Origin: Bryobacteraceae bacterium
GTDB taxonomy: Bacteria; Acidobacteriota; Terriglobia; Bryobacterales; Bryobacteraceae
Length of the DNA stretch: 64,000 nt
Direction of reading: 5' to 3'
NCBI GenBank assembly: GCA_025055455.1
Contig: JANWXD010000015.1
Span: forward strand, 10,629 to 74,628
The translations under genes were made by a program, and so were the position numbers. Positions 23,884 to 45,954 of this stretch are shown here, piece by piece. The notes under the pieces are model-generated. The model worked only from the letters and a program-made list of their open reading frames with translations. It made no database searches and had not been told where the DNA came from. Numbering within the stretch: the stretch's first letter is position 1; each line of letters opens with the position of its first letter.

Positions 23884-23998
23884 CCCGCGTGTCGCTCGCA
23901 CTCTAAGGAGTCAGCAGGGCCGAGGCCGCGGGCTGCGAGCGCTGATCCGGACCTCCGGGATGAGTGAGGAGGCGCGGAGCTGCGGTAATCTAGGGTTT

Positions 23999-24412
23999 AT
24001 GGTGCGTTGGTTGGTGGCGATTGCACTGGCGAGCGCTGCGGTCGTAGGCAGCTCGGAGAACAAGGCCTCCCCGAAGAAGCTCACTCCGGAGGAGGTGAAA
24101 ACATATCTGGACTCGGGGAAGGTGTTTTTCCTGGATGTGCGCGAGCCCGAGGAGGTGCGGACGCTGGGCACGCTACCGGGCTATGTCAACATTCCGGTCA
24201 GCGAGCTCGAGAAGCGGCTCAAGGAGATCCCCAAGGACAAGCTAATCATCACGGCTTGAAACCGCGGGGCGAGAGCCGCGCGTGCCGCGGACCTGTTGAG
24301 CCAGAGGGGCTACAAAGTGCTGGGCAGCTGTGGTCTGGCCGAGTGGAAGGAGAAGGGCTACCAGGTCATCTATCCGGGCGAGGGCTCGGCGGAAGCCAAG
24401 CCGCAGCGGTAG
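23999..24412 (+). CDS. Exported rhodanese-like protein with TGA (predicted selenocysteine) at the active-site cysteine
   Basis: 137 residues if the in-frame TGA at 24257-24259 is read through (codon 87). A signal peptide (MVRWLVAIALASAAVVGSSE) leads into a single rhodanese domain: TPEEVKTYLDSGKVFFLDVR, EPEEVRTLGTLPGYVNIPVS, KDKLIITA-[TGA]-NRGARAARAADLL, GYKVLGSCGLAEWKEKGYQV. The rhodanese active-site loop is C-x-x-G-x-R, and the TGA falls exactly on that Cys (x-NRGAR follows). The frame stays open and conserved for 50 more codons to the TAG at 24410-24412. A GC-rich hairpin that fits a bacterial SECIS lies just downstream. The ATG at 23999 is chosen because it begins the signal peptide; an in-frame ATG at 23960 exists. 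The alternatives are a single-base nonsense mutation of TGC/TGT or a sequencing error. No selA, selB, selC or selD is in the window. Confidence 0.75.
24276..24290 (+). promoter_or_regulatory. Candidate bacterial SECIS hairpin
   Basis: CCGCG-CGTGC-CGCGG forms a perfect 5-bp GC stem with a 5-nt loop. The loop starts at the 22nd nucleotide after the TGA, has G as its second base and contains GU. Known bacterial SECIS elements place a small G-containing loop roughly 16-37 nt after the UGA, so this fits. A competing upstream stem (CGCGG-GGCGAGAG-CCGCG, 24263-24280) is also possible. The region is coding, so some pairing is expected by chance at this GC content. Confidence 0.5.
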
Positions 24413-27913: not shown

Positions 27914-28830
27914 GGCGCCACCCCCTGCCTGCGGATGAGGGCGATGAAGACGTCTTCGAGCGAAGGCCGAATGCGGACAAAGCGCGCGCCGGCTACCAGG
28001 TTTGCCAGCCGCTCCGGCGCGGCGACGGCGGGATCGAGGAAGGCGTGCAAGACGGGGCCGGCAGGTTCGATGCTGAGGACGCCGGGGCGGCGGCGCAGCG
28101 CTTCGCGGGCTTCCCGGAGATCGGGGGCCTCGATCTCGTAGCAGGGTTCGGCGATAGCCTCGAGCAGCGCCTGCGGCGCGCCGATCTGAATGAGGCGGCC
28201 GCGGTACAGAAGCGCTACGCGGTCGCAGCGCTCTGCCTCGTCGAGGTAGGAGGTCGCCAGCAGCACGGTGATCCCTCCGGCGGCGAGTTCACGCAGAATC
28301 TGCCAGAAATCGCGGCGCGAAACGGGGTCCACGCCGGTGGTTGGCTCGTCGAGGAGGAGGATCTCCGGCCGGTGGAGCAGCGCGCACATCAGGGCGAGCT
28401 TTTGTTTCATACCGCCGGACAGGTGCCCGGCGCGGCGACGGCGGAAGGGCTCTAGGCGGGTCATGGCCAGCAGGCGGGAGGCCAGGGCGGCGCGCTGCGC
28501 CCGGGGCACGCCGAACAGGTCGGCGTAAAAAGCCATGTTCTCGTCCACGGTGAGATCCGGATAAAGTCCGAAGCGCTGGGCCATGTAGCCGATGCGGTCT
28601 TTGAGGGCGCCAGCGTCGCGGACGATGTGCAACCCGGCCAGCCACGCCTCACCCTCGGTGGGCGCGAGCAGACCGGCGAGCAGGCGCAGCGTCGTGGTCT
28701 TTCCTGCCCCATCCGGGCCCACCAAGCCAAAGATTTCGCCGCGGGCCACGTCGAAGCTGAGGCGGTCCACGGCCGTCAGGGAGGCGAAGCGGCGCGTCAG
28801 GCCGAGGGAGCGGATGGCAGCGTCGTGCAC
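27910..28830 (-). CDS. ABC transporter ATP-binding protein (first half of a split YbhF)
   Basis: 306 residues. Walker A is GPDGAGKTTT, the signature is HLSGGMKQKLALM and Walker B is ILLLDEPTTGVDP. The Asp in the 'GPDGAGKT' Walker A is characteristic of the N-terminal domain of YbhF-like exporters. The switch His position is Ser here (LLATSYLDEAE), so catalysis may rest on the partner ATPase. A C-terminal extension of about 80 residues (YEIEAPDLREAREALRRRPG) is a DrrA-like regulatory tail. The GTG start at 28830 follows the HlyD stop by 3 nt. Confidence 0.92.
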   Translation of the reverse strand: MHDAAIRSLGLTRRFASLTAVDRLSFDVARGEIFGLVGPDGAGKTTTLRLLAGLLAPTEGEAWLAGLHIVRDAGALKDRIGYMAQRFGLYPDLTVDENMAFYADLFGVPRAQRAALASRLLAMTRLEPFRRRRAGHLSGGMKQKLALMCALLHRPEILLLDEPTTGVDPVSRRDFWQILRELAAGGITVLLATSYLDEAERCDRVALLYRGRLIQIGAPQALLEAIAEPCYEIEAPDLREAREALRRRPGVLSIEPAGPVLHAFLDPAVAAPERLANLVAGARFVRIRPSLEDVFIALIRRQGVAP

Positions 28831-28833
28831 AGC

Positions 28834-30000
28834 TCACTCCACCAGGATTTCGGCATCGGCCGGCATGTTGGACTTGAGCTCGTGGCGCGGATTGGGCAAG
28901 TCCACTTTGATGCGGTAGACGAGCTTGACGCGTTCCTCGGGCGTCTGGATCTCCTTGGGGGTGAACTCGGCTTGGGCGGCGATGAAGGAGACGCGGCCCC
29001 AGTACACCTTGCCGGGGTAGGAGTCGGTGGTGACGCGGACGCGTTGGCCGAGCTTGACGCGCCCGAGGTCGCGCTCGCCGATGTAGCCGCGGAGCCAGGG
29101 CCGCTCCAGGTCGCCGATGGTGAGCACCGTCGTGCCGGCGGCCACGGTCTCGCCGGGTTCGGCGGAGGTGACGAGCACGACGCCGTCCACGGGAGAGAGG
29201 GCTTCGGTGTCGCGCAATTGCGCTTCGATCAGGCCGAGCTGAGCGTGGGCGCGGGCGATGTCGGCGCGGCGCAGGGCGACTTCCTGCTGCCGCCGGCGCA
29301 GCTCGATGCGGCCGGCTTCGGCCAGCCGCAACGCGGCGCGGGCCCGGGCGGCCTGGGCGCGGGCCTGCTCCAGCGTTTCTTTCCTGGGCCCCTCCTCGAT
29401 CAGAGACAGCCGCAGTTCGGCTTGGCGCAGGGCGGCGGCGGCGCGCTCGTAGGCCGTGCGGAACTGGTCGTGCTGGGCGGCCGAGATGTCGTCATTGCGG
29501 AAGAGCACCTGCGCGCGTTCCCAATCGTTGCGGGCGCGTTCCTGCTCGGCGCGGGCGGCCGCGGCAGCGGCGCGCGCTTCCTGAATCTCCTGCGGCCGCG
29601 CGCCGGCCTCGAGCTCTCGGAGCCGGGCTTCGGCCTGCTCCAGATCGGCGCGCCGTGCGGCGGTTTCGGCCTCGAGCGTTTCCCGTTGCAGCTCGATGGC
29701 CGTGAGCAACTGGGCGAGGGCGGACTGCGCCGCGGCGAGGCCCGCCTGTTCCCGCGCGCGCTGGCTGAGCAACTGGTCCCGGTCGAGCCGCGCCACAACC
29801 ATGCCCTTGCGCACGGGCCGGCCTTCGTCCACGAGCCGCTCGACGAGCCGTCCGGGAATCTTGAACGAGATGTGCACCTCCGTGAGTTCGATGTTGCCGG
29901 AGAACCGGATGACGTCCGAAGGGGATTCTTGGCGGCGCAGCCAGAACGCCAGCGCCAGGGCCAGAGCCGCGAGGAGCAGAATCCAGGCGCGCTTCCTCAC
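28834..30000 (-). CDS. HlyD/YbhG-type periplasmic adaptor protein
   Basis: 388 residues. An N-terminal membrane anchor (RAWILLLAALALALAFWLRR) precedes a split biotinyl-lipoyl domain (GNIELTEVHISFKIPGRLVE and LSPVDGVVLVTSAEPGETVA). A long alpha-helical hairpin of about 180 residues (AAQSALAQLLTAIELQRETL to ADIARAHAQLGLIEAQL) separates the two halves. The C-terminal beta barrel contains WLRGYIGERDLGRVKLGQRV. It bridges the inner-membrane permease to the TolC-like channel. The GTG start overlaps the TolC gene stop. Confidence 0.92.
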   Translation of the reverse strand: MRKRAWILLLAALALALAFWLRRQESPSDVIRFSGNIELTEVHISFKIPGRLVERLVDEGRPVRKGMVVARLDRDQLLSQRAREQAGLAAAQSALAQLLTAIELQRETLEAETAARRADLEQAEARLRELEAGARPQEIQEARAAAAAARAEQERARNDWERAQVLFRNDDISAAQHDQFRTAYERAAAALRQAELRLSLIEEGPRKETLEQARAQAARARAALRLAEAGRIELRRRQQEVALRRADIARAHAQLGLIEAQLRDTEALSPVDGVVLVTSAEPGETVAAGTTVLTIGDLERPWLRGYIGERDLGRVKLGQRVRVTTDSYPGKVYWGRVSFIAAQAEFTPKEIQTPEERVKLVYRIKVDLPNPRHELKSNMPADAEILVE

Positions 30001-32206: not shown

Positions 32207-33430
32207 ATGCCCACATCTCGCAGATCCTTTGTTGCCGCTTCGGCGGGGGTGTTGACGGCGGCGTCGTGCGCGCGGGTGCTGGGGGCCAACGACCGGCTGC
32301 GGCTCGGCGTCATCGGCACGGGGCCTCGCGGGCAGTGGCTGATGAAGGCCTTGCAGCGGATCGCCGGCGCCGAGATCGAGTTCGTGGCGGTGTGCGACGT
32401 CTACGACGTGCGGCGCAACGAGGCCGCCCGCCTGGCGGGCGGCGCGGTCGAGCAGTATCTGGATTACCGCTCGCTTCTCGACCGCCGCGACGTGGACGCA
32501 GTCATTGTCGCCACGCCGGATCACTGGCACGGCCGCATCACCGTGGACGCCCTCAACGCAGGCAAAGACGTCTATGTCGAAAAGCCGATGGTGCACTTCC
32601 CCAAGGACGGGCAGGCTGTGGTGCGGGCCGCGAGGGCGAACCGCCGCGTCGTGCAGGTGGGCACGCAAGGACGGGGGCTGCCCAACTATGTGGAAGCCAA
32701 GCAGAAGTATATAGACACGGGTATTATGGGCAAAGTGGGTCTGGCGCGCACCTGGTACACGTCCAACACCGGTTATATCCGCACGGCGCCCCCGGGCTTC
32801 GAGCGCAAGCCGGAAGGGCTGGACTGGGAGCGCTAACTGGGACCCGCGCGCAAGGTCCCCTGGAATCCGGAGATCTACTTCAGCCCTTACAAATGGCTCC
32901 ACTACGACGGAGGCATGATCATGGGCATCGCCATCCACGTGGTGGACTCGGCGCATCACTGGTTGTCGCTGCGGAACCCTTCCGCCGCAGTGGCCGGCGG
33001 CGGCATTTACTATTACAAGGACGGCCGCGACACGCCCGACACGGTGAGTTTCATTCTCGAATACCCGCAGGAAGTCATCGTGACCTTCACCGCCGAGTGC
33101 CTGACCGCTCCAGGCGTGCGCACGTCAGCAGGGGTGGAATTGCGTGGCACCGGGGGTACGCTCACCGCGGCCCGCTATTCCCACGAATTCGGCTACGCTT
33201 ACACGCCGAACGGCAAATTCAGCAAGGAACCGCCGGCCAGCGTCTCCTTACCGCCCGCCAATGCGGAAAATATCCTGCGGGACTGGCTGGACCGCATCCG
33301 CGACCGCAAGCGGACGGTGGCCAACGAGGAGGAGGCGTATTACTCGACGATGGCGTGCTTCATGGCGGCCGAAGCGCTGCGCACGCGGTCGCGAGTTACC
33401 TGGGACCGGAAGTGGGACTTACCCGCGTGA
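32207..33430 (+). pseudogene. Gfo/Idh/MocA oxidoreductase interrupted by an in-frame TAA
   Basis: The full-length frame would give about 407 residues. A Tat-type leader (MPTSRRSFVAASAGVLTAAS) precedes a Rossmann domain (RLGVIGTGPRGQWLM) with the catalytic motif VEKPMVHFPKDG. An ochre codon at 32834-32836 breaks the frame between GLDWER and LGPARKVPWNPEIY. The same frame then continues with fully family-like sequence (SPYKWLHYDGGMIMGIAIHV) to 33430. One base change from a Tyr codon (TAC/TAT) would explain it. A strong ribosome site (GGAGGAG) lies before the ATG. It may be a recent pseudogene or a sequence error. The next gene, a TIM barrel, often partners such enzymes. Confidence 0.85.
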
Positions 33431-34319: not shown

Positions 34320-34425
34320 AAACGCCGAGCGCCGTTCGTTGTGAAAGGCGCGCCGGCTGCGGCTCCAGCTCGATGACCCCGTCACGGCAGCGCACAACGA
34401 GTGCCGTGCCCGGGGCCAGCTGTGG
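34320..34425 (-). pseudogene. Fragment of a MazE/AbrB-type antitoxin
   Basis: The minus strand reads QLAPGTALVVRCRDGVIELE followed by PQPARLSQRTALGV. This is the second half of a SpoVT-AbrB swapped-hairpin domain (pattern 'lxPGtxlxVrxxDGxIxLxP'). A stop codon lies just upstream, the N-terminal half is missing, and the following sequence drifts. It lies back to back with the PIN gene at 34422, on the opposite strand. That is not the usual co-oriented antitoxin-toxin layout, so rearrangement or decay is likely. Confidence 0.4.
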
Positions 34426-34850
34426 TCAAGACGGCCTGGGACACGAGTTGCCTGGTAGCCCTGCTGTGCGAATGGCATGAGTTCCATCCACGAACGCTCG
34501 AAACGTACAGGGAACTCAGGGATCGGGGGCGCTTCATTATCGCCGGCTACGCACTGCTGGAGTGTTTTTCGGTGCTGACGCGCCTCCCCGCTCCGGCACG
34601 CTTGGCCCCGGCTGACGCGGCGCGTTTGTTACGGGAGAACTTTGCGGGGGCGGAGATTGCCGCCGCCGACCCCCAGTCGTGCCGGGATGCGATCGAAAGA
34701 GTCGCCGCTCTAGGGATCGGAGAAGGGAGGATCTACGACGCGGTGATTGCGTATTGCAGTTACCGCGCCGGAGCTGAGCGGCTGTTGAGCTGGAACGTCC
34801 GAGACCTCGCGGTCGTCTCGCCCCCGGGGCTGGCAATGCGCGAACCCTAA
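34422..34850 (+). CDS. PIN-domain ribonuclease (VapC-like toxin)
   Basis: About 142 residues from the GTG at 34422 (an in-frame start at 34401 also exists). PIN-domain acidic residues are seen in KTAWDTSCLVALL (first Asp), AGYALLECFSVLTRL (Glu) and GEGRIYDAVIAYCSY (third Asp), followed by LLSWNVRDL at the place of the usual 'L.T.d..dF'. Such toxins cleave tRNA or rRNA. No intact antitoxin gene precedes it. Only an AbrB-like fragment on the opposite strand is present, so this copy may be orphaned or controlled from elsewhere. Confidence 0.75.
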   Translation: MVKTAWDTSCLVALLCEWHEFHPRTLETYRELRDRGRFIIAGYALLECFSVLTRLPAPARLAPADAARLLRENFAGAEIAAADPQSCRDAIERVAALGIGEGRIYDAVIAYCSYRAGAERLLSWNVRDLAVVSPPGLAMREP

Positions 34851-34858
34851 CCGCCAGG

Positions 34859-34867
34859 TGCTATACT
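34859..34867 (+). promoter_or_regulatory. Extended -10 element before the cobalamin riboswitch
   Basis: TGCTATACT is an extended -10 box (TGN-TATACT) about 55 nt before the start of riboswitch helix P1. No clear -35 box is seen. It would give the transcript that carries the riboswitch and the BtuB-like gene. Confidence 0.45.
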
Positions 34868-34922
34868 CACGACGTCGGGCCGCGCGGCGGTCCGCGATCT
34901 TTCACACAACGATCACCAGCGG

Positions 34923-35077
34923 GCGAGGAATGTTCGGGAAGGCGGTGTGAATCCGCCACTGCCCCGCAACTGTGAGCGACACCTGCAAAGGGCCGGCGCG
35001 GTCACTGCGTGAGCGGGAAGGCTGCGCCACCCCCCACGGGAGACGGCCCGTCGCAAGTCAGGAGACCGGTTCCTCGC
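34923..35077 (+). ncRNA. Cobalamin (B12) riboswitch
   Basis: The conserved core reads GGGAAGGCGGTGTGAATCCG, then CCACTGCCCCGCAACTGTGA (B12-box region). A GGGAAGGCTGCG segment follows, and then the closing GCAAGTCAGGAGACCGG. The ends pair perfectly as P1: GCGAGGAA (34923-34930) with TTCCTCGC (35070-35077). The order and spacing match the cobalamin class (adenosyl- or methylcobalamin). P1 ends about 10 nt before the start codon of the downstream TonB receptor, so control of translation initiation by sequestering the start region is likely. Confidence 0.95.
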
Positions 35078-35087
35078 TTCTTGCGTG

Positions 35088-37349
35088 ATGCGTTCCGAGG
35101 GAGAACGTTTCACGACCAAGACTTGCCTTTGCCTCGTTTCTTGCGGTCTGAGCCTGGCTCTGGCCGCACACCCAGTGGAGATCACCGGCACGGTCGTGGA
35201 TTCGTCCGGGCGCGCGGTTCCCGCCGCGGAAGTGACGTGCGGTTTTGCGCGCGCGACCACGGGGCCTGACGGCCGTTTCCGGTTTTCGGGCATCGAGCGG
35301 TGCCGGGCCTCGGTGGCGGCGCCGGGGTTCGAGACCCTGCGCACGGAACTCGCAGCGGGCGCCGAAACCCGTTTGGAGCTGCGCGTCGCCGGGCCGTTGG
35401 AACGCGTGGTAGTGACCGCGACGCGATCCGAGTCGACGGCGGAGGAGACGGGAGTGGCGGCCACCGTGATCACCCGCGCCGATCTCGAGCAGCGCCAGTT
35501 CCCCATGGTGCTCGAAGCGCTGCGAACCGTCCCGGGCCTGTTCGTGGTGCAGACCGGGCGCCGCGGCGGCCTGACGGCCGTGTTCACCCGCGGCGCGCAG
35601 CGCACCGGAACCTTGTTTCTGGTGGACGGCGTTCCGGTGAACGATCCTGGCGGAGAGTTCAATGCCGCGCACTTGACCTCCGGCACCCTGGAGCGGGTGG
35701 AGATGGTGCGCGGGCCTGAAAGCGCGCTGTTCGGAACGGACGCCGCAGCCGGCGTCGTGCAGCTCTTCACGCGGCGGGGCGATCCGGAAGCTGCCGTCCC
35801 GCGAGGCACGCTCGCCTACGACCGCGGCAGTTTTCAGACCGACCGCTGGTCGGCCGGACTGGCGGGCGGCTCCGGCGCCCGTTTCGACTACGCCCTCCAC
35901 GCAGAGCAGCTGCGCAGCGCCGGCGAGTTCCCGAACGACCACTACCGGAACACGACGGGCAGCCTGAATGCGGGCATCCGTTTTTCCGAGGCGACACAGC
36001 TTCGGGGCGTGTTTCGGGCTATGGATTCGACCTTGGGCGTGCCGGGCCAGGTGGCGTTCGGCCTGGTGGATCACGACGCTTTCGAGACCAACCGCGATTA
36101 TGTCGTGTCGCTGCGTCTGGAAGACGCGCGAGGCAGCCGCTACCTGCAAAGTGCGTCCTTCGGGCATCACCGCGTGCGCGATGTTTACACCAATCAGCGC
36201 CTGGACGGCCCGTACGCGCTGGCCGCGCTGGTGCGGGACGTAGCCGGGCCGCCCCGGCGGACCTATCTGGTGCGGCTGCTGGATCCGCGGCGGCTGCCGG
36301 TCGAGATCCCGACAGGGACCCGCCTGGTGCAGAGGGAGGTCACGCTGTTCCCTTCGCGCGAGCCGTTCGTGAGCGCGACCTCGCGTACGCGGGCCGGCTA
36401 CCAAGGGAGTCTGACGCACGGCGCAGGGACGGCGACGTTCGGCTACGAGTACGAGCGGCAGGAGGGAGACATCTCCAAGCGAGAAGTCGCACGGAACCGG
36501 CACGGGGTCTTTGCGCACGAACAGCGGAGCCTCGGCGGCCGCTTGTTCGTGGCGGGCGGGCTACGGGTCGAACACAGCAGCGCGTTCGGTGCCCGCGTGG
36601 CGCCCCGAGGCGCCGCGAGTCTTCTGGTTTCCGGCGAGCGCGGGGCGCTCTCGTCGGCGTGGCTGCGCTTCAGCGCCGGGCGCGGGATTACGGAGCCGAG
36701 TCTGCTTCAGAACTTCGCCCGCGAAGCCTTTTTCACGGGCAACCCGGACCTGCGCCCGGAGAAGACCACGAGCTACGAAGCCGGTCTGGTAGCGGAGTGG
36801 TTCGGCCGGCGGCTGCACGCGGAAGCGGCGGCCTTTCACAGTTCGTTCCAGGACCTGATCGCTTTCGTGTCGCTGCCGCCCCCCACCTGGGGGAGCTGGG
36901 CCAACGTGGAAGCCAGCCGCGCGCGAGGCGTGGAGCTGGCGGCGGCCGTGCGGCTCCCCTGGCAGGTACAGTTGCGCGGCGCGTACCTGCGCCTTTGGAC
37001 GCGGATTCTGCGTTCGAACGCTCCGGCGAGTCCGTTTACGGGGGTCGGGCAGGAACTCGGAAGGCGCCCGGGCAACTCCGGTTCGCTGTCGCTGGCTATT
37101 ACGCCGCGCCGGTGGATGTTCCAGGCCGGAGCGGTGCTGGCCGGCGAGCGGCAGGATTCCGATTTCTGGCTCGGCGTGAACCGGAATCCCGGATATCAAC
37201 TGGTCTACGCGTCCGGTTCGCTGCGGCTGACGCGCCACGTGACGCCGTTTTTCCAAGCCGACAACGTGCTGAACGCGCGCTACCAGGAGGCACTCGGCTA
37301 CAGCAGCCTGGGGCGGAGCCTGCGGGGAGGGGTGCGGCTGGCGTGGTGA
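35088..37349 (+). CDS. BtuB-like TonB-dependent receptor for cobalamin
   Basis: 753 residues. A short leader (FTTKTCLCLVSCGLSLALAA) is followed by a carboxypeptidase-regulatory domain (ITGTVVDSSGRAVPAAEVTC). Then comes a classical plug: ERVVVTATRSESTAEETGVA is the Ton-box region, followed by VPGLFVVQTGRRGGLTAVFT, FLVDGVPVNDPGGEF and VEMVRGPESALFGTDAAAGV. The barrel runs to a C-terminal RGGVRLAW. The plug order matches BtuB/vitamin-type receptors rather than Oar-type ones. The B12 riboswitch directly upstream gives strong support for cobalamin as the ligand. A GTG one codon upstream could also be used. Downstream lie broken btuF/btuD remnants, so inner-membrane transport must come from another locus. 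Confidence 0.9.
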   Translation: MRSEGERFTTKTCLCLVSCGLSLALAAHPVEITGTVVDSSGRAVPAAEVTCGFARATTGPDGRFRFSGIERCRASVAAPGFETLRTELAAGAETRLELRVAGPLERVVVTATRSESTAEETGVAATVITRADLEQRQFPMVLEALRTVPGLFVVQTGRRGGLTAVFTRGAQRTGTLFLVDGVPVNDPGGEFNAAHLTSGTLERVEMVRGPESALFGTDAAAGVVQLFTRRGDPEAAVPRGTLAYDRGSFQTDRWSAGLAGGSGARFDYALHAEQLRSAGEFPNDHYRNTTGSLNAGIRFSEATQLRGVFRAMDSTLGVPGQVAFGLVDHDAFETNRDYVVSLRLEDARGSRYLQSASFGHHRVRDVYTNQRLDGPYALAALVRDVAGPPRRTYLVRLLDPRRLPVEIPTGTRLVQREVTLFPSREPFVSATSRTRAGYQGSLTHGAGTATFGYEYERQEGDISKREVARNRHGVFAHEQRSLGGRLFVAGGLRVEHSSAFGARVAPRGAASLLVSGERGALSSAWLRFSAGRGITEPSLLQNFAREAFFTGNPDLRPEKTTSYEAGLVAEWFGRRLHAEAAAFHSSFQDLIAFVSLPPPTWGSWANVEASRARGVELAAAVRLPWQVQLRGAYLRLWTRILRSNAPASPFTGVGQELGRRPGNSGSLSLAITPRRWMFQAGAVLAGERQDSDFWLGVNRNPGYQLVYASGSLRLTRHVTPFFQADNVLNARYQEALGYSSLGRSLRGGVRLAW

Positions 37350-37367
37350 ACAGAGGGCGAGCGCGGC

Positions 37368-37724
37368 ATGGGGGCGGCGTGGTTAGGGACGCTGGCGATT
37401 TGCGCCGCGGCCGCCCCGCCCCGACGCTTGTTTTGACCGCCCCGAGCCTTGCGGAGATGCTGTTCCGGCTGGGGCTCGGCTCACGTTTTGGGAGGGACCA
37501 CCTTCTGCCGGCACCCTTCGGAACCCGCCAAGAAGCCGAAGATCGGAGGCTATTTGCGGCCCAACCGTGGGAGCGACCTTGGCGTTGCAGACGGACTTGG
37601 TGCCGGCGGCGCGGAGCATGATTCGCAGGCGTTCGCACGGAGCGAGTTCGCGGCGTTGGCGGGACCCAACGGCGCGGGCAAATCCAACGTTGCTCGCGAT
37701 CATGGCTGGAGTGCGGGCCGGCTA
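37368..37724 (+). pseudogene. Remnant of a btuF-btuC-btuD B12 ABC transporter operon
   Basis: Pieces of a BtuF-like binding protein occur in three frames: MGAAWLGTLAICAAAAPPRR, then LVLTAPSLAEMLFRLGLGSR, then GTTFCRHPSEPAKKPKIGGY with LRPN, then TLALQTDLV and AEHDSQAFAR. These run straight into a BtuD-like ATPase Walker A, FAALAGPNGAGKS, where one extra A ends the frame, and then LLAIMAGVRAG with a stop. The btuF 3' half, all of btuC and the btuD start are missing, and at least four single-base lesions are visible. It lies 18 bp after the BtuB-like receptor. Confidence 0.75.
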
Positions 37725-37887
37725 AGTCGGCAGTTCGGCGGTTCGCGGTAAGCACCGCCATGCTCGGGGGGCGGTTCTTCGTCTGGCTGCTGCGCTCGCG
37801 GCGCCGCAGCCTGTGGCTGTAAGATGAAAGTTCGGGCACGGGCCGCCTCCGAAGCGTACAGCGTCCTTCCTCGAAGCACCGTTCCGA

Positions 37888-39001
37888 GTGCGCTGCCCGG
37901 GTCTCAGCACGCCGGTGATCAACAAACTGGTTTGGGAGAATTTGAAGCATCGCCCGGTGCGGTCGGCGCTGGCCGTGCTCGCCATCGGCGTGGAGGTCAC
38001 CATGATCCTCACGCTGGTGGGTCTCAGTCGCGGCACGGTCGAAGACATGGCGCAGCGGGCCCGTGGGGTGGGCGCGGACATTCTGGTGCGCGCGCCAGGG
38101 ACTTCCCTGATCGGCCTGAGCTCGGCCACGATGAACCAAAAGCTGCTGGGGTTTCTCGAGCAGCAACCGCACGTGCGGGCCGTGGCCGGCACCGTGGTGC
38201 ACCCCATCGGCGGGGTGAGCAGCGTCACGGGGCTCGACTTGGAGGAGTTCAACCGCGTCAGCGGCGGCTTCCGCTACCTGGCGGGCCGGCCCTTCCGCCA
38301 CGATGACGAGGTCATCGTGGACGCATACTACGCTCGCCAGAACAACCTGCGCGTAGGCGCCACGGTGCGGTTGCTCAACCGCGACTGGCGGGTGTGCGGG
38401 ATCGTGGAGCCGGGCAAGCTGGCGCGGATCGTGATCGCGCGCGACACGCTGCAAAACTTAGTGGGGGCCACGGGCAAGCTGAGCTCGATCTTCGTGAAGT
38501 TGGACGACCCGGCCAACACCGATCGAGTCATCGCATCCCTGAAGCAGCAGCTGCCGGACTACCCGATCTACTCCATGGAGGAGCTCACGTCGCTGTACTC
38601 GGTGCAAAACGTGCCGGGCCTGAAGGCGTTCACGGGCGTGGTGGTCAGCCTGGCGGTGGTGGTGGGCTTTCTTGTGGTCTTTCTTTCCATGTACACGGCG
38701 GTGCTCGAGCGGACGCGCGAGATCGGGATTCTCAAGGCGCTGGGCGCCTCACCTGGCTACATCCTCAACGTGGTGTTCCGCGAAACGGCGCTGATGGCCC
38801 TGGCCGGCTCGGCCGTAGGGATCCTGATGACGTTCGGGACGCGCTGGGCGGTGATGACGCTGATCCCCGCCTCGCTCGTGCAGAAAATCGTTCCGGAGTG
38901 GTGGCCCATCGCGGCGGCGATCGCCGTGGGCGGGGCGCTGGCGGGCGCGCTGTATCCGGCCTGGAAGGCCGCCGGCCAAGATGCGATCCAAGCGCTGGCC
39001 T

Positions 39002-39009
<8 letters not shown>
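37888..39009 (+). CDS. MacB/FtsX-type ABC transporter permease
   Basis: 373 residues. The N-terminal helix VRSALAVLAIGVEVTMILTL is followed by a MacB-type periplasmic core domain (about residues 50-250). Three C-terminal helices follow: VVVSLAVVVGFLVVFLSMYT, then the coupling segment ERTREIGILKALGASPGYIL, then ALMALAGSAVGILMTF and IAAAIAVGGALAGALYPAWK. The GTG at 37888 is given as the start; a GTG nine codons later (37915) fits the membrane topology equally well and neither has a clear ribosome site. It overlaps the ATPase gene by 8 nt. No MacA-like adaptor is adjacent, so it is more likely a mechanotransmission/lipoprotein-type system than a full pump. Confidence 0.85.
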
Positions 39010-39679
<670 letters not shown>

Positions 39680-39738: not shown

Positions 39739-41197
39739 ATGCGGAACTCGGCTGCGGCGGCTCCAGGAACGTTCTACGGGCTGGAGGATCGTCCGCCGTT
39801 CCTTCGCGCCGCCATGTTGGGGGCGCAGCACGTCCTGACCATGTTCGGGGCGACGGTGGCGGTGCCGCTGCTCGTGGCGCCCGTCATGAACCTCACTCCG
39901 GAGCAGACCGGGCGTCTGATTTCCGCGGTAATGCTGGCCAGCGGCGTAGCCACGCTGGTGCAGACCACTCTCGGTTCCCGGCTCCCGATCGTACAGGGGA
40001 TGTCGTTTTCCTTTATCGCCGCCTACTTCTCGATCATCGCCGCGGTAAGGGACCAGGGCGGCGGAGCGGTGGAGATGATGCAGTACATCGCCGGCGCGAT
40101 CCTGGCCGGGGCGGTAGTCGAGGCGACGGTGGGCTACGCGGGGGTCATCGGCCGGCTAAAACGTTTTTTCTCGCCCGTAGTCACGGGACCGGTGATCATC
40201 CTGATCGGCCTGGCGCTGTTTCAGCACGGAGCGCCCAAGGCGGGCGCGGACTGGGCGATTTCCGGATTGACGATCGTGCTGGTGATCGTTTTCTCTCTGA
40301 TTCTGGGACGGCGAACGGTGCTGTTTCGCATCTTTCCGGTGCTGCTCGCCCTCGTGATCGTTGTCACGTTGTGCGGGATTCTGTCGGCAGCGGGGGCTTT
40401 TGCCGTCCCGGGGATCCCTCCTACGTGGACCTGACGCCGGTGCGTTCCGCGCCGTGGCTGCGTTTCGAGCCTCGCGAGATTTTCTTTCCGTGGGGCTGGC
40501 CGAAGTTTCGCTTGGGTTTCTTTTTGGCCGTGCTGGCCGGCTATCTAGCTTCGATCATCGAGTCCTTCAGAGATTACTACGCCTGTGCGCGCCTAGCGGC
40601 GGGCCGCGACCCGACGCGCGTGAGATCTCTCGGGGGATTGGGGCCGAAGGCGTAGGCTGCTTCCTGGCGGGAATGTTCGGCGGCTTTAGCTCCACCAGTT
40701 ACTCGGAGAATATCGGGCTGGTGGGGCTGACGAAAGTCGGCAGCCGCTACGTGGTGCAGATCGGCGCGCTGCTTCTGATCGCCTTAGGCGTGCTGGGCAA
40801 ATTCGGAGCCCTGGCTGCCGCAATTCCAAGTCCGGTGGTCGGCGGGATTTATTGCGTCATGTTCGGGCTCATTTCTGCGGTGGGCATGCAGCAACTGGCA
40901 CGCTGCGATTTGCACTCGGACCGCAACCTCTTCATTGCCGGATTCAGTTTGTTCATGGGCCTGAGCGTGCCGGCGTGGTTCCGCGCGGTGGGCAGTCCGG
41001 AGGCCATGCAGCCGCTCGAAACGCTGGCCATGTACCGGCCGACGGCCGAGGCGTTTCTGGCGCGTCTGCCGGCGGCGCTGGCGGACATCGTGGCCGCCAT
41101 CGGCTCGACGGGGATGGCAGTGGGAGCAATTCTGGGGCTCCTTTTGGACAATCTGCTGCCGGGGAAAACCCAGGAGGAGGCGCAACAGGGGCAGCGG
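39739..41197 (+). pseudogene. NCS2 xanthine/uracil permease split by frameshifts
   Basis: NCS2 permease sequence is continuous but spread over three frames. Frame A (39739 to about 40410): GAQHVLTMFGATVAVPLLVA, LGSRLPIVQGMSFSFIAAYF. Frame B (about 40410-40620): DPSYVDLTPVRSAPWLRFEP, YLASIIESFRDYYACARLAA. Frame C (about 40620-41190): GVGCFLAGMFGGFSSTSYSE, NIGLVGLTKVGSRYVVQIGA, ending LLLDNLLPG. Each junction needs one missing base, the first in the C/G run at 40407-40413. Frame C has no stop before it runs antisense into the enolase-like gene, so the C-terminus is also disturbed. These are either real lesions or homopolymer-type sequence errors. Confidence 0.8.
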
Positions 41198-42653: not shown

Positions 42654-43229
42654 TTACCGCGAGCCCCGGAGGCGTCGCAGGGCCAGCGCGACCAGCGCGG
42701 CTGCGAGCGCCATGGCAGCCGCTGCGTGCCAAGCGTGCTGCAGGAGCCAGACCTGCACGGTCGATTCGCCGAACTGGGCGCCGAGCCAAGCCAGCCCGAA
42801 GTACCTCGGGATCCGAGCGGCCAAAATGACGAGCAAAAACGGCACGGCCCCCACGCCGAACACGCCCGCCGCGATGATGAAAGCTTTCGTCGGCAGCGGA
42901 ATGGGCGAAAACGCGGGGACGAACACGGTCGCGAGCCCGTAGCGGCGAAACCAGTCGAGGAAGGTTTGGGCCCGGCGCTGGGGCACGTGCCGACGCCAGT
43001 AAAGCTCGCCTCCCTTGCGCGCCACAAAGTAGAGGACCATGCATCCGGCCGTGGATCCGGCCACCGCGAGCCCGGCCGAAAGGAAAGCCAGCGCCGGCTC
43101 GGAGGCCGCCACGGCGATCAAGAGCGCGTCCACGGTGGCCGGCAACGGCAGGCCGGCTGAGTCGAGCAACGCCAGAAGGAAGACGCCCGCCGGTCCCCAA
43201 CTGACTAACGTCTGGGCGATGTACCGCAG
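42654..43229 (-). CDS. DedA/SNARE-associated family membrane protein, probable CTG start
   Basis: 191 residues in the version given here. DedA core motifs are ALLDSAGLPLPATVDALLIA, ARKGGELYWRRHVPQRRAQ and VFVPAFSPIPLPTKAFIIAA (the 'F.R..P..R...' region), with four to five membrane helices. The first in-frame ATG/GTG/TTG is a TTG at 43169, but it would cut off clearly DedA-like sequence (RYIAQTLVSWGPAGVFLLAL). A GGGGAGG lies 8 nt before an in-frame CTG at 43229, so I propose CTG as the start. DedA proteins flip or recycle lipid carriers and support envelope homeostasis. Confidence 0.75.
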   Translation of the reverse strand: MRYIAQTLVSWGPAGVFLLALLDSAGLPLPATVDALLIAVAASEPALAFLSAGLAVAGSTAGCMVLYFVARKGGELYWRRHVPQRRAQTFLDWFRRYGLATVFVPAFSPIPLPTKAFIIAAGVFGVGAVPFLLVILAARIPRYFGLAWLGAQFGESTVQVWLLQHAWHAAAAMALAAALVALALRRLRGSR

Positions 43230-43259
43230 TTTGCCGACCTCCCCTTCACGCTCCGGGGC

Positions 43260-43655
43260 CTAGGCCGTGCGGATCCCTTGCCGCTTCGCCTCTCGGCGGA
43301 GGGTCTGATCCGCAGACAACAGCAGGGCATCCTCCCGACGCGCCAAGGCCAGATAGAGCATATCGTAGACGCTGTGCTGGAGGAGACGAGCTAAATGGAA
43401 GGCTTCGCGGTAAAGCTCCCGCGAGGACATCAACTGGTCGGGCAGGCCCAATGTCCTTTCCATGCCCTCCTCGCACAAGTCGAGTTCCAGGTTTCCAAAC
43501 CGGTGGAACTTCCAAACCGTGTTGACCACCTCGGCAACGAAAATATCTGGTGATAGAACTTCCTCCGCGTCTTCCAGCAGCGGGACGAACCGTGAGCCGC
43601 CACCGCGGCGAAAACCGGCCTCGATCGCCGCGCTGGCATCCAGGACGATTCTCAT
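43260..43655 (-). CDS. PIN-domain toxin (VapC-like)
   Basis: 131 residues. MRIVLDASAAIEAGFRRGG carries the first Asp, APDIF-like segment EEVLSPDIFVAEVVNTVWKF the Glu, and SVYDMLYLALARREDALLLS, followed by ADQTL, the later Asp residues of the PIN active site. It is an RNase toxin partnered by the RHH-like protein just upstream, whose stop overlaps its ATG (ATGA). The upstream extension of the frame is a shadow of the antitoxin gene. The pair lies between ligA and dedA. Confidence 0.85.
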   Translation of the reverse strand: MRIVLDASAAIEAGFRRGGGSRFVPLLEDAEEVLSPDIFVAEVVNTVWKFHRFGNLELDLCEEGMERTLGLPDQLMSSRELYREAFHLARLLQHSVYDMLYLALARREDALLLSADQTLRREAKRQGIRTA

Positions 43656-43897
43656 CGGCGCCGGTCCTCTCGAATCAGTTTCACGGGATCCGGCAAGCGA
43701 TTCGCACGGGCCGGCGTGAGTTTCCCTGGGGCTCGCAGTAGCCGCCGGCGGCGCGCTTTCGGATCGAGGTCGGCTTCCAGGCCCTGAGCGAGGATGGCCA
43801 GGGCCTGTTGAGAGACGCTCCTGCGCTCCCACGCGGCGCGCTCGCGCAACCGGCGGTACACGTGTTCGGGTACGTCGCGGATCTGGACTAGTGGCAT
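43652..43897 (-). CDS. VapB/FitA-like antitoxin
   Basis: 81 residues from the ATG at 43897 (MPLVQIRDVPEHVYRRLRER). The start has GAAGGCGAG just before it. The N-terminal beta strand plus RRLRERAAWERRSVSQQALA matches the ribbon-helix-helix FitA/VapB type, which binds its own promoter. The C-terminal basic and proline-rich tail (KARRRRLLRAPGKLTPARAN) should block the toxin active site. The 49-bp gap to ligA would hold the operator. Confidence 0.8.
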   Translation of the reverse strand: MPLVQIRDVPEHVYRRLRERAAWERRSVSQQALAILAQGLEADLDPKARRRRLLRAPGKLTPARANRLPDPVKLIREDRRR

Positions 43898-43946
43898 CTC
43901 GCCTTCATTGTAACGCTGAATGCATTTGGCTGCAAATTGCAGCGCC

Positions 43947-45954
<2,008 letters not shown>

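Follow-up and report, generated by a model that had tools for sequence, protein, structure and literature searches.

Features of the locus

We analysed a stretch of 64,000 nucleotides (the window) from contig C52 of the draft genome of a Bryobacteraceae bacterium (3.95 Mb in 145 contigs, completeness 98.75, contamination 3.51), in which a cobalamin riboswitch and a BtuB-like TonB-dependent receptor are followed by fragments of the transporter genes btuF, btuD and btuC and then by an exporter. The features are as follows.

34911..35088, + strand: cobalamin riboswitch aptamer (RF00174; cmscan 70.7 bits, full-length match, 1-189 of 189)
35084..35114, + strand: Shine-Dalgarno (SD) hairpin, with stem 35090-35095/35103-35108 and the SD in the loop at 35096-35102
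35085..35090, + strand: candidate substitute start codons GTG (35085) and ATG (35088), in frame with the receptor
35085..37349, + strand: BtuB-like TonB-dependent receptor, an open frame of 754 codons (Pfam)
35112..35114, + strand: ACG where relatives have an ATG start (leader comparison)
37427..37635, + strand: btuF remnant in three frames (profile pieces 37427-37486, 37479-37568 and a weak 37537-37635)
37626..37719, + strand: btuD remnant (Walker A at 37626-37691; weak continuation in another frame at 37675-37719)
37745..37822, + strand: btuC remnant, the final 25 codons and stop (profile 33.1 bits, 37745-37819)
37888..39009, + strand: FtsX/MacB-type exporter permease (Pfam)
38981..39679, + strand: ABC ATPase of the MacB-type exporter, intact (Pfam)

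For comparison we surveyed 237 genomes of the family for the receptor (E 1e-60). Thirty-nine carried it, this genome (G000) included, and the downstream stretch was compared for all 38 others. The closest receptor orthologues (L045-L064) all come from metagenome-assembled genomes named as Bryobacterales, Bryobacteraceae or Acidobacteria, and orthologues in four near relatives are 53-60% identical. None of the titles listed in the literature searches concerned this locus.

The aptamer score compares with an Rfam gathering score of 31.5 bits, and both arms of the P1 helix could be located (GCGAGGAA at 34923-34930 and TTCCTCGC at 35070-35077), as an earlier note on this DNA, made from the letters alone, had proposed. 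A riboswitch also precedes the receptor in 32 of the 34 relative loci scanned with Rfam (all receptor loci except L136, L142, L143, L144 and L156). A search for promoter-like sites found none, and that for terminator-like sites found three, against 3.0 in shuffled sequence.

The receptor frame contains CarboxypepD_reg, Plug (PF07715) and beta-barrel (PF00593) domains. Its best NCBIfam model is TIGR01779 (TonB-B12) at 177.3 bits, which is below the cut-off of 599.7, hence its assignment to B12 rests on the riboswitch and synteny. We regard it as a B12 receptor with a putative role in cobalamin import.

Remnants of btuF, btuD and btuC

Profiles built from 16-17 relatives recovered fragments of all three transporter genes within about 400 bases downstream of the receptor, in the ancestral order btuF-btuD-btuC and with about three changes of frame; no open BtuF, BtuC or BtuD frame lies at this place. 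The btuF pieces score 14.8, 29.6 and a weak 4.4 bits in that order, and the btuD pieces 15.9 bits for the Walker A motif and a weak 2.1 bits for the residues that follow. Shuffling the region 1000 times in two-base blocks gave best scores of 3.7 (BtuF), 5.9 (BtuD) and 4.8 bits (BtuC), far below the main fragments; the btuD continuation falls within the shuffle range. The btuC remnant is 83% identical to the G010 BtuC over residues 308-331 of 331 (tblastn). The earlier note had described BtuF pieces in several frames running into a BtuD Walker A motif, and both are found, the third btuF piece being the weak one. It had also called btuC missing; in fact the end of the gene survives just beyond position 37724, where the note stopped.

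This arrangement implies two large deletions, one joining btuF to btuD and the other btuD to btuC. No direct repeats were found at the deletion ends, and the sole repeat detected, a 15-nt pair at 37416-37451, lies elsewhere.

Comparison with relatives

Near full-length btuF, btuD and btuC without stops adjoin the receptor in 20 of the 38 relatives, in the same order (G019, G002, G010, G112, G157, G116, G111, G118, G110, G148, G249, G194, G248, G193, G204, G197, G199, G207, G198 and G205). In three others (G232, G234 and G252) they lie behind an insert of 1.5-3.4 kb, in six (G017, G138, G154, G143, G206 and G117) a contig end cuts the view, and in nine (G215-G219, G172, G196, G213 and G214) they are absent from the downstream stretch examined. 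The exporter permease follows btuC in seven of the intact relatives (G010, G019, G110, G111, G116, G148 and G249), its match beginning 2613-3722 nt past the receptor end as compared with 542 nt in the window. Hence about 2.1 kb or more has been lost from a known arrangement. The window thus shares with the btuB-btuFDC operons of relatives such as G010 and G019 the riboswitch family, an orthologous receptor, the gene order and the downstream exporter, and differs from them in having fragments of btuF, btuD and btuC and an ACG at the start position. The suggestion in the earlier note of an operon being lost from its 3' end agrees with this synteny, although btuC is not wholly gone and the first gene, too, appears to have been hit at its start codon.

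The receptor start codon

The leaders of 39 loci were compared, starting at the B12 box, and five loci were dropped (L136, L154 and L156 have no 5' part, and L153 and L155 no box); the L051 leader was picked up solely by a looser box pattern. An ATG lies at most 20 nt past the SD in all 34 readable relatives. The window is the sole exception and reads ACG, so that no canonical start is present at the conserved place. The in-frame GTG and ATG sit 24-27 nt upstream of the ACG with no purine-rich SD before them. An identical GTGATG occurs upstream of the ATG in L125, L128, L043 and L051, and as these relatives have the later ATG it is not a new compensation. In an E. coli reporter study ACG belonged to a codon group giving 0.1-1.5% of the ATG level (PMC6925171). 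With ACG in place of ATG, translation of the receptor is probably very low; we would expect it to be much reduced, not necessarily zero. The receptor, described earlier as intact, is so in its frame of 754 codons and not in its start position.

Most of the 34 leaders of receptor orthologues have, after the aptamer and before the start codon, a hairpin with the SD in its loop; a simple hairpin rule gives none for L147 and L149 and the wrong hairpin for L133 and L043. In the window a predicted outer helix (35084-35088 with 35110-35114) pairs the ACG. The fold energy of its leader (-15.5 kcal/mol, z -2.88) is the lowest among 35 folded leaders of 33-42 nt. By eye, the AUG pairs with an upstream AUGAG in the predicted folds of several relatives. 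The layout resembles that of the E. coli btuB leader, where the riboswitch is followed by a stem-loop region (P13/P14) with SD and AUG (PMC11162775) and acts on translation initiation. Unlike that leader, the one in the window has ACG as its start codon and heads a former transporter operon.

A second, putative B12 locus and the probable need for B12

The only other cobalamin riboswitch of the genome lies on contig C62 (C62:47005-47210), which also holds both FecCD permeases found in the genome and two of its three Peripla_BP_2 proteins. Behind this riboswitch follow a PduO-type adenosyltransferase, a DUF7676 frame, btuF, btuC, btuD, a second receptor, btuF, btuD and btuC; CbiB and CbiZ lie just upstream of it. 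The frames of binding protein, permease and ATPase are whole here, and the FecCD permeases are without stops. The earlier note had proposed a search for another btuFCD, and this contig supplies two btuFCD-like sets. We observed that the two sets, in different orders (F-C-D and F-D-C), stand around one receptor (L008, C62:34000-52000).

The gene names used for C62 hold at the level of the family. Among named models the first permease scores highest with BtuC (275 bits against a cut-off of 461). The first binding protein has no match to the BtuF model, and the second scores 82.6 against a cut-off of 234. For the second receptor the best model is again TonB-B12 (123.8 against 599.7). The tetranucleotide correlation of C62 is 0.84-0.86; ten pieces of the same genome give 0.79-0.91 and ten from other genomes 0.37-0.76. 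With this matching composition it is less likely that C62 was binned into the genome by mistake.

Both C62 permeases form long branches in a tree of 51 rows, 50 of them different. The first groups with G028, G029, G030 and G035 of a neighbouring family of the order and with G302 of another class (97/90), apart from the majority of its own family's BtuC; a copy in G021, another genome of the family, falls outside this group on the same side. The second groups weakly with the family rows G004, G009 and G013 (94/81). Rows G032, G036 and G037 of the neighbouring family fall inside the family-type group, so that BtuC types are not strictly taxonomic. The top non-self match of the first permease among 396 genomes of the phylum, 55% identical, is in another class. 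It is plausible, though not proven, that the first set was acquired from outside.

The genome contains methionine synthase (MetH; a partial frame, 884.9 of the 1010.85 bits of TIGR02082) and both parts of methylmalonyl-CoA mutase, and CbiC/CobH gave no match in it (the control matched in 7 of 14 known genomes). Hence imported corrinoid is probably required. By the families searched, C62 is the sole whole import locus found. Of the inner-membrane transporter that the earlier note had called for, C62 thus provides candidate sets; a replacement of the energy-coupling factor (ECF) type is not indicated by a CbiQ search, which found one ECF system in the genome, beside CbiM and of metal type, components specific to B12 not having been searched for. 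CbiQ matches occur in 10 of 10 genomes, and the three loci inspected were of metal type (L164, L165 and L168 by their reading frames, L165 alone also by Pfam), so that we set the ECF systems found by this search aside as the replacement. A BtuF-like protein on contig C54 was likewise rejected as a candidate, no permease frame adjoining it within the 6.5 kb inspected.

Probable stepwise decay of a redundant operon

From these data we consider it probable that the window holds a redundant ancestral B12 locus in stepwise decay, which has lost btuFDC, has been hit in its receptor start and is compensated by the locus on C62. The ancestral operon of the family would have run riboswitch - btuB - btuF - btuD - btuC, followed by the unrelated exporter. 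Comparison with the relatives shows that btuF, btuD and btuC were lost through two large deletions and a number of small frame changes. The receptor would have remained constrained during at least part of the decay, and its ATG would later have become ACG, leaving translation probably very low. The loss of the transporter would be tolerable because the second locus, which is present in the genome and whose substrate and function we infer from its homologies and the riboswitch that heads it, supplies import.

The order of these events is suggested by the contrast between the receptor and the remnants. By a rough calculation, which takes mutation rates to be uniform and the bases to be called correctly, three frame changes in about 127 retained btuF, btuD and btuC codons would lead one to expect about 18 in the receptor, where none is seen; the lower 95% bound on three events still predicts nearly four in 754 codons. 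The receptor was hence probably kept longer than the three transporter genes. Under redundancy, bacterial pseudogenes arise when one of two copies of a function suffers deletions, shifts of frame and loss of its start codon. The locus described here is the same in kind, with the order of loss, transporter and then receptor, still readable.

Several observations weigh against this reading. The receptor body carries no excess of damage, with no stops in 754 codons and three private changes at columns that do not otherwise vary; across 27 sequences, those of the window and of 26 relatives out of the 38, such changes number 0-6. On C62, all the named B12 models that matched did so below their cut-offs, and the second permease matches best a FhuB-type model, with BtuC lower at 171 bits, which makes B12 less sure as the substrate of the second set. 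Furthermore, two genes that neighbour the operon carry lesions of single-base type, so that some of the lesions could be consensus errors:

32207-33430, + strand: Gfo/Idh/MocA oxidoreductase, broken near 32834 by a single in-frame TGA (Pfam)
39739-41188, + strand: xanthine/uracil permease (PF00860) in three frames (profile positions 4-201, 221-263 and 282-388)

The first half of the Gfo/Idh protein matches its Pfam domain and the second just misses it (26.1 of 27 bits).

The state of the receptor body would also fit a gene that is still functional, translated from the ACG or from the upstream GTG or ATG under riboswitch control and handing B12 to the C62 transporter, with btuFDC alone dead. 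Its unbroken codons beside heavily shifted fragments, the shortfall from the predicted 18 frame changes and the unexceptional number of private substitutions point that way, as do an aptamer above threshold and the SD hairpin. As a control for the substitution test, the exporter permease of the window has 10 private changes in a range of 0-15 of 11 sequences; the same control on the ATPase is unreliable, row G154 (66) being evidently a wrong match. We nevertheless hold a functional receptor to be somewhat unlikely, as the upstream codons have no purine-rich SD, the ACG group performed poorly in the E. coli reporter (0.1-1.5% of ATG; PMC6925171) and no other leader of the 35 folds to so low an energy. 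Another view takes the small lesions, the ACG among them, as errors of the draft consensus and the large deletion alone as real. The draft state of the genome, in 145 contigs with the completeness and contamination given above, and the two broken genes within about 5 kb speak for it. The missing 2.1 kb or so goes beyond what base errors can make, and most other coding stretches of the 64 kb run in single frames according to an ad hoc scan for which ten frames of the window served as training set; we judge this view distinctly unlikely. The broken neighbours may be a cluster of genuine pseudogenes or a stretch where the consensus is poor; this has no bearing on the large deletion, and it might have one on the ACG. 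An assembly chimera that falsely joins the receptor to the exporter is highly improbable, since the exporter is the downstream neighbour in the seven relatives and the fragments between the two stand in ancestral order.

The coding scan showed three further segments with one stop (23995-24405, 27931-29994 and 42661-43647). Elsewhere in the window, a PIN-domain protein (Pfam) is encoded at 34401-34850 (+), with no adjoining antitoxin frame that we could recognise; another frame, PIN-like by eye, lies at 43260-43954 (-) next to a small possible antitoxin frame.

Relatives with a receptor and no recognised permease

Two of the nine relatives without adjacent btuFDC (G213 and G214) have a full FecCD permease elsewhere in the genome. 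At E 1e-3 no FecCD match was found in G215, G216, G217, G172 or G196. G218 and G219 each have one partial match (51.9 and 41.1 bits; Pfam cut-off 26.5), compared with best matches of 161.7-301.8 bits in the other 32 genomes with a match. These partial matches (positions 79-309) resemble the second, weak ones in G198, G002, G204, G157 and G148 and were not counted as BtuC. The completeness of these genomes is 89-98%.

Seven relatives (G215-G219, G172 and G196; loci L144, L139, L143, L135, L137, L138 and L158, respectively) therefore have a receptor with ATG and a riboswitch or B12 box, and neither btuFDC beside the receptor nor a full-length FecCD. The riboswitch before the receptor was identified by Rfam in G216, G218, G219, G172 and G196 and by the B12 box in G215 and G217. 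The receptor frame is unbroken in six of the seven, and that of G172 holds one TAG. Genus g74 is represented by five genomes, and in four of them receptor and exporter are separated by a methyltransferase-like frame, as called by Pfam in G216 and G215 and by eye in G218 and, partially, in G217. The two Pfam calls are:

L050:9243-10277 (G216): O-methyltransferase-like gene in the place of btuFDC
L053:9314-10333 (G215): O-methyltransferase-like gene in the place of btuFDC

In a comparative study about 10% of B12-importing organisms appeared to be without BtuFCD (PMC2667541). It is conceivable, if rather unlikely in our estimate, that a riboswitch-controlled receptor repeatedly outlives its transporter in this family. 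A second and perhaps acquired btuFCD-like cluster would have taken over in the present genome, and the seven relatives would need an unrecognised inner-membrane transporter for corrinoids.

Collectively, the locus is a well resolved case of ordinary gene loss. It gives an order of death for a riboswitch operon in which the distal transporter genes go before the start codon, the receptor body being held longer, and it illustrates that an unbroken reading frame can conceal a lost start codon. For the family, the relatives in which a B12 receptor occurs and no B12 permease is recognised provide a testable lead to missing transporters.

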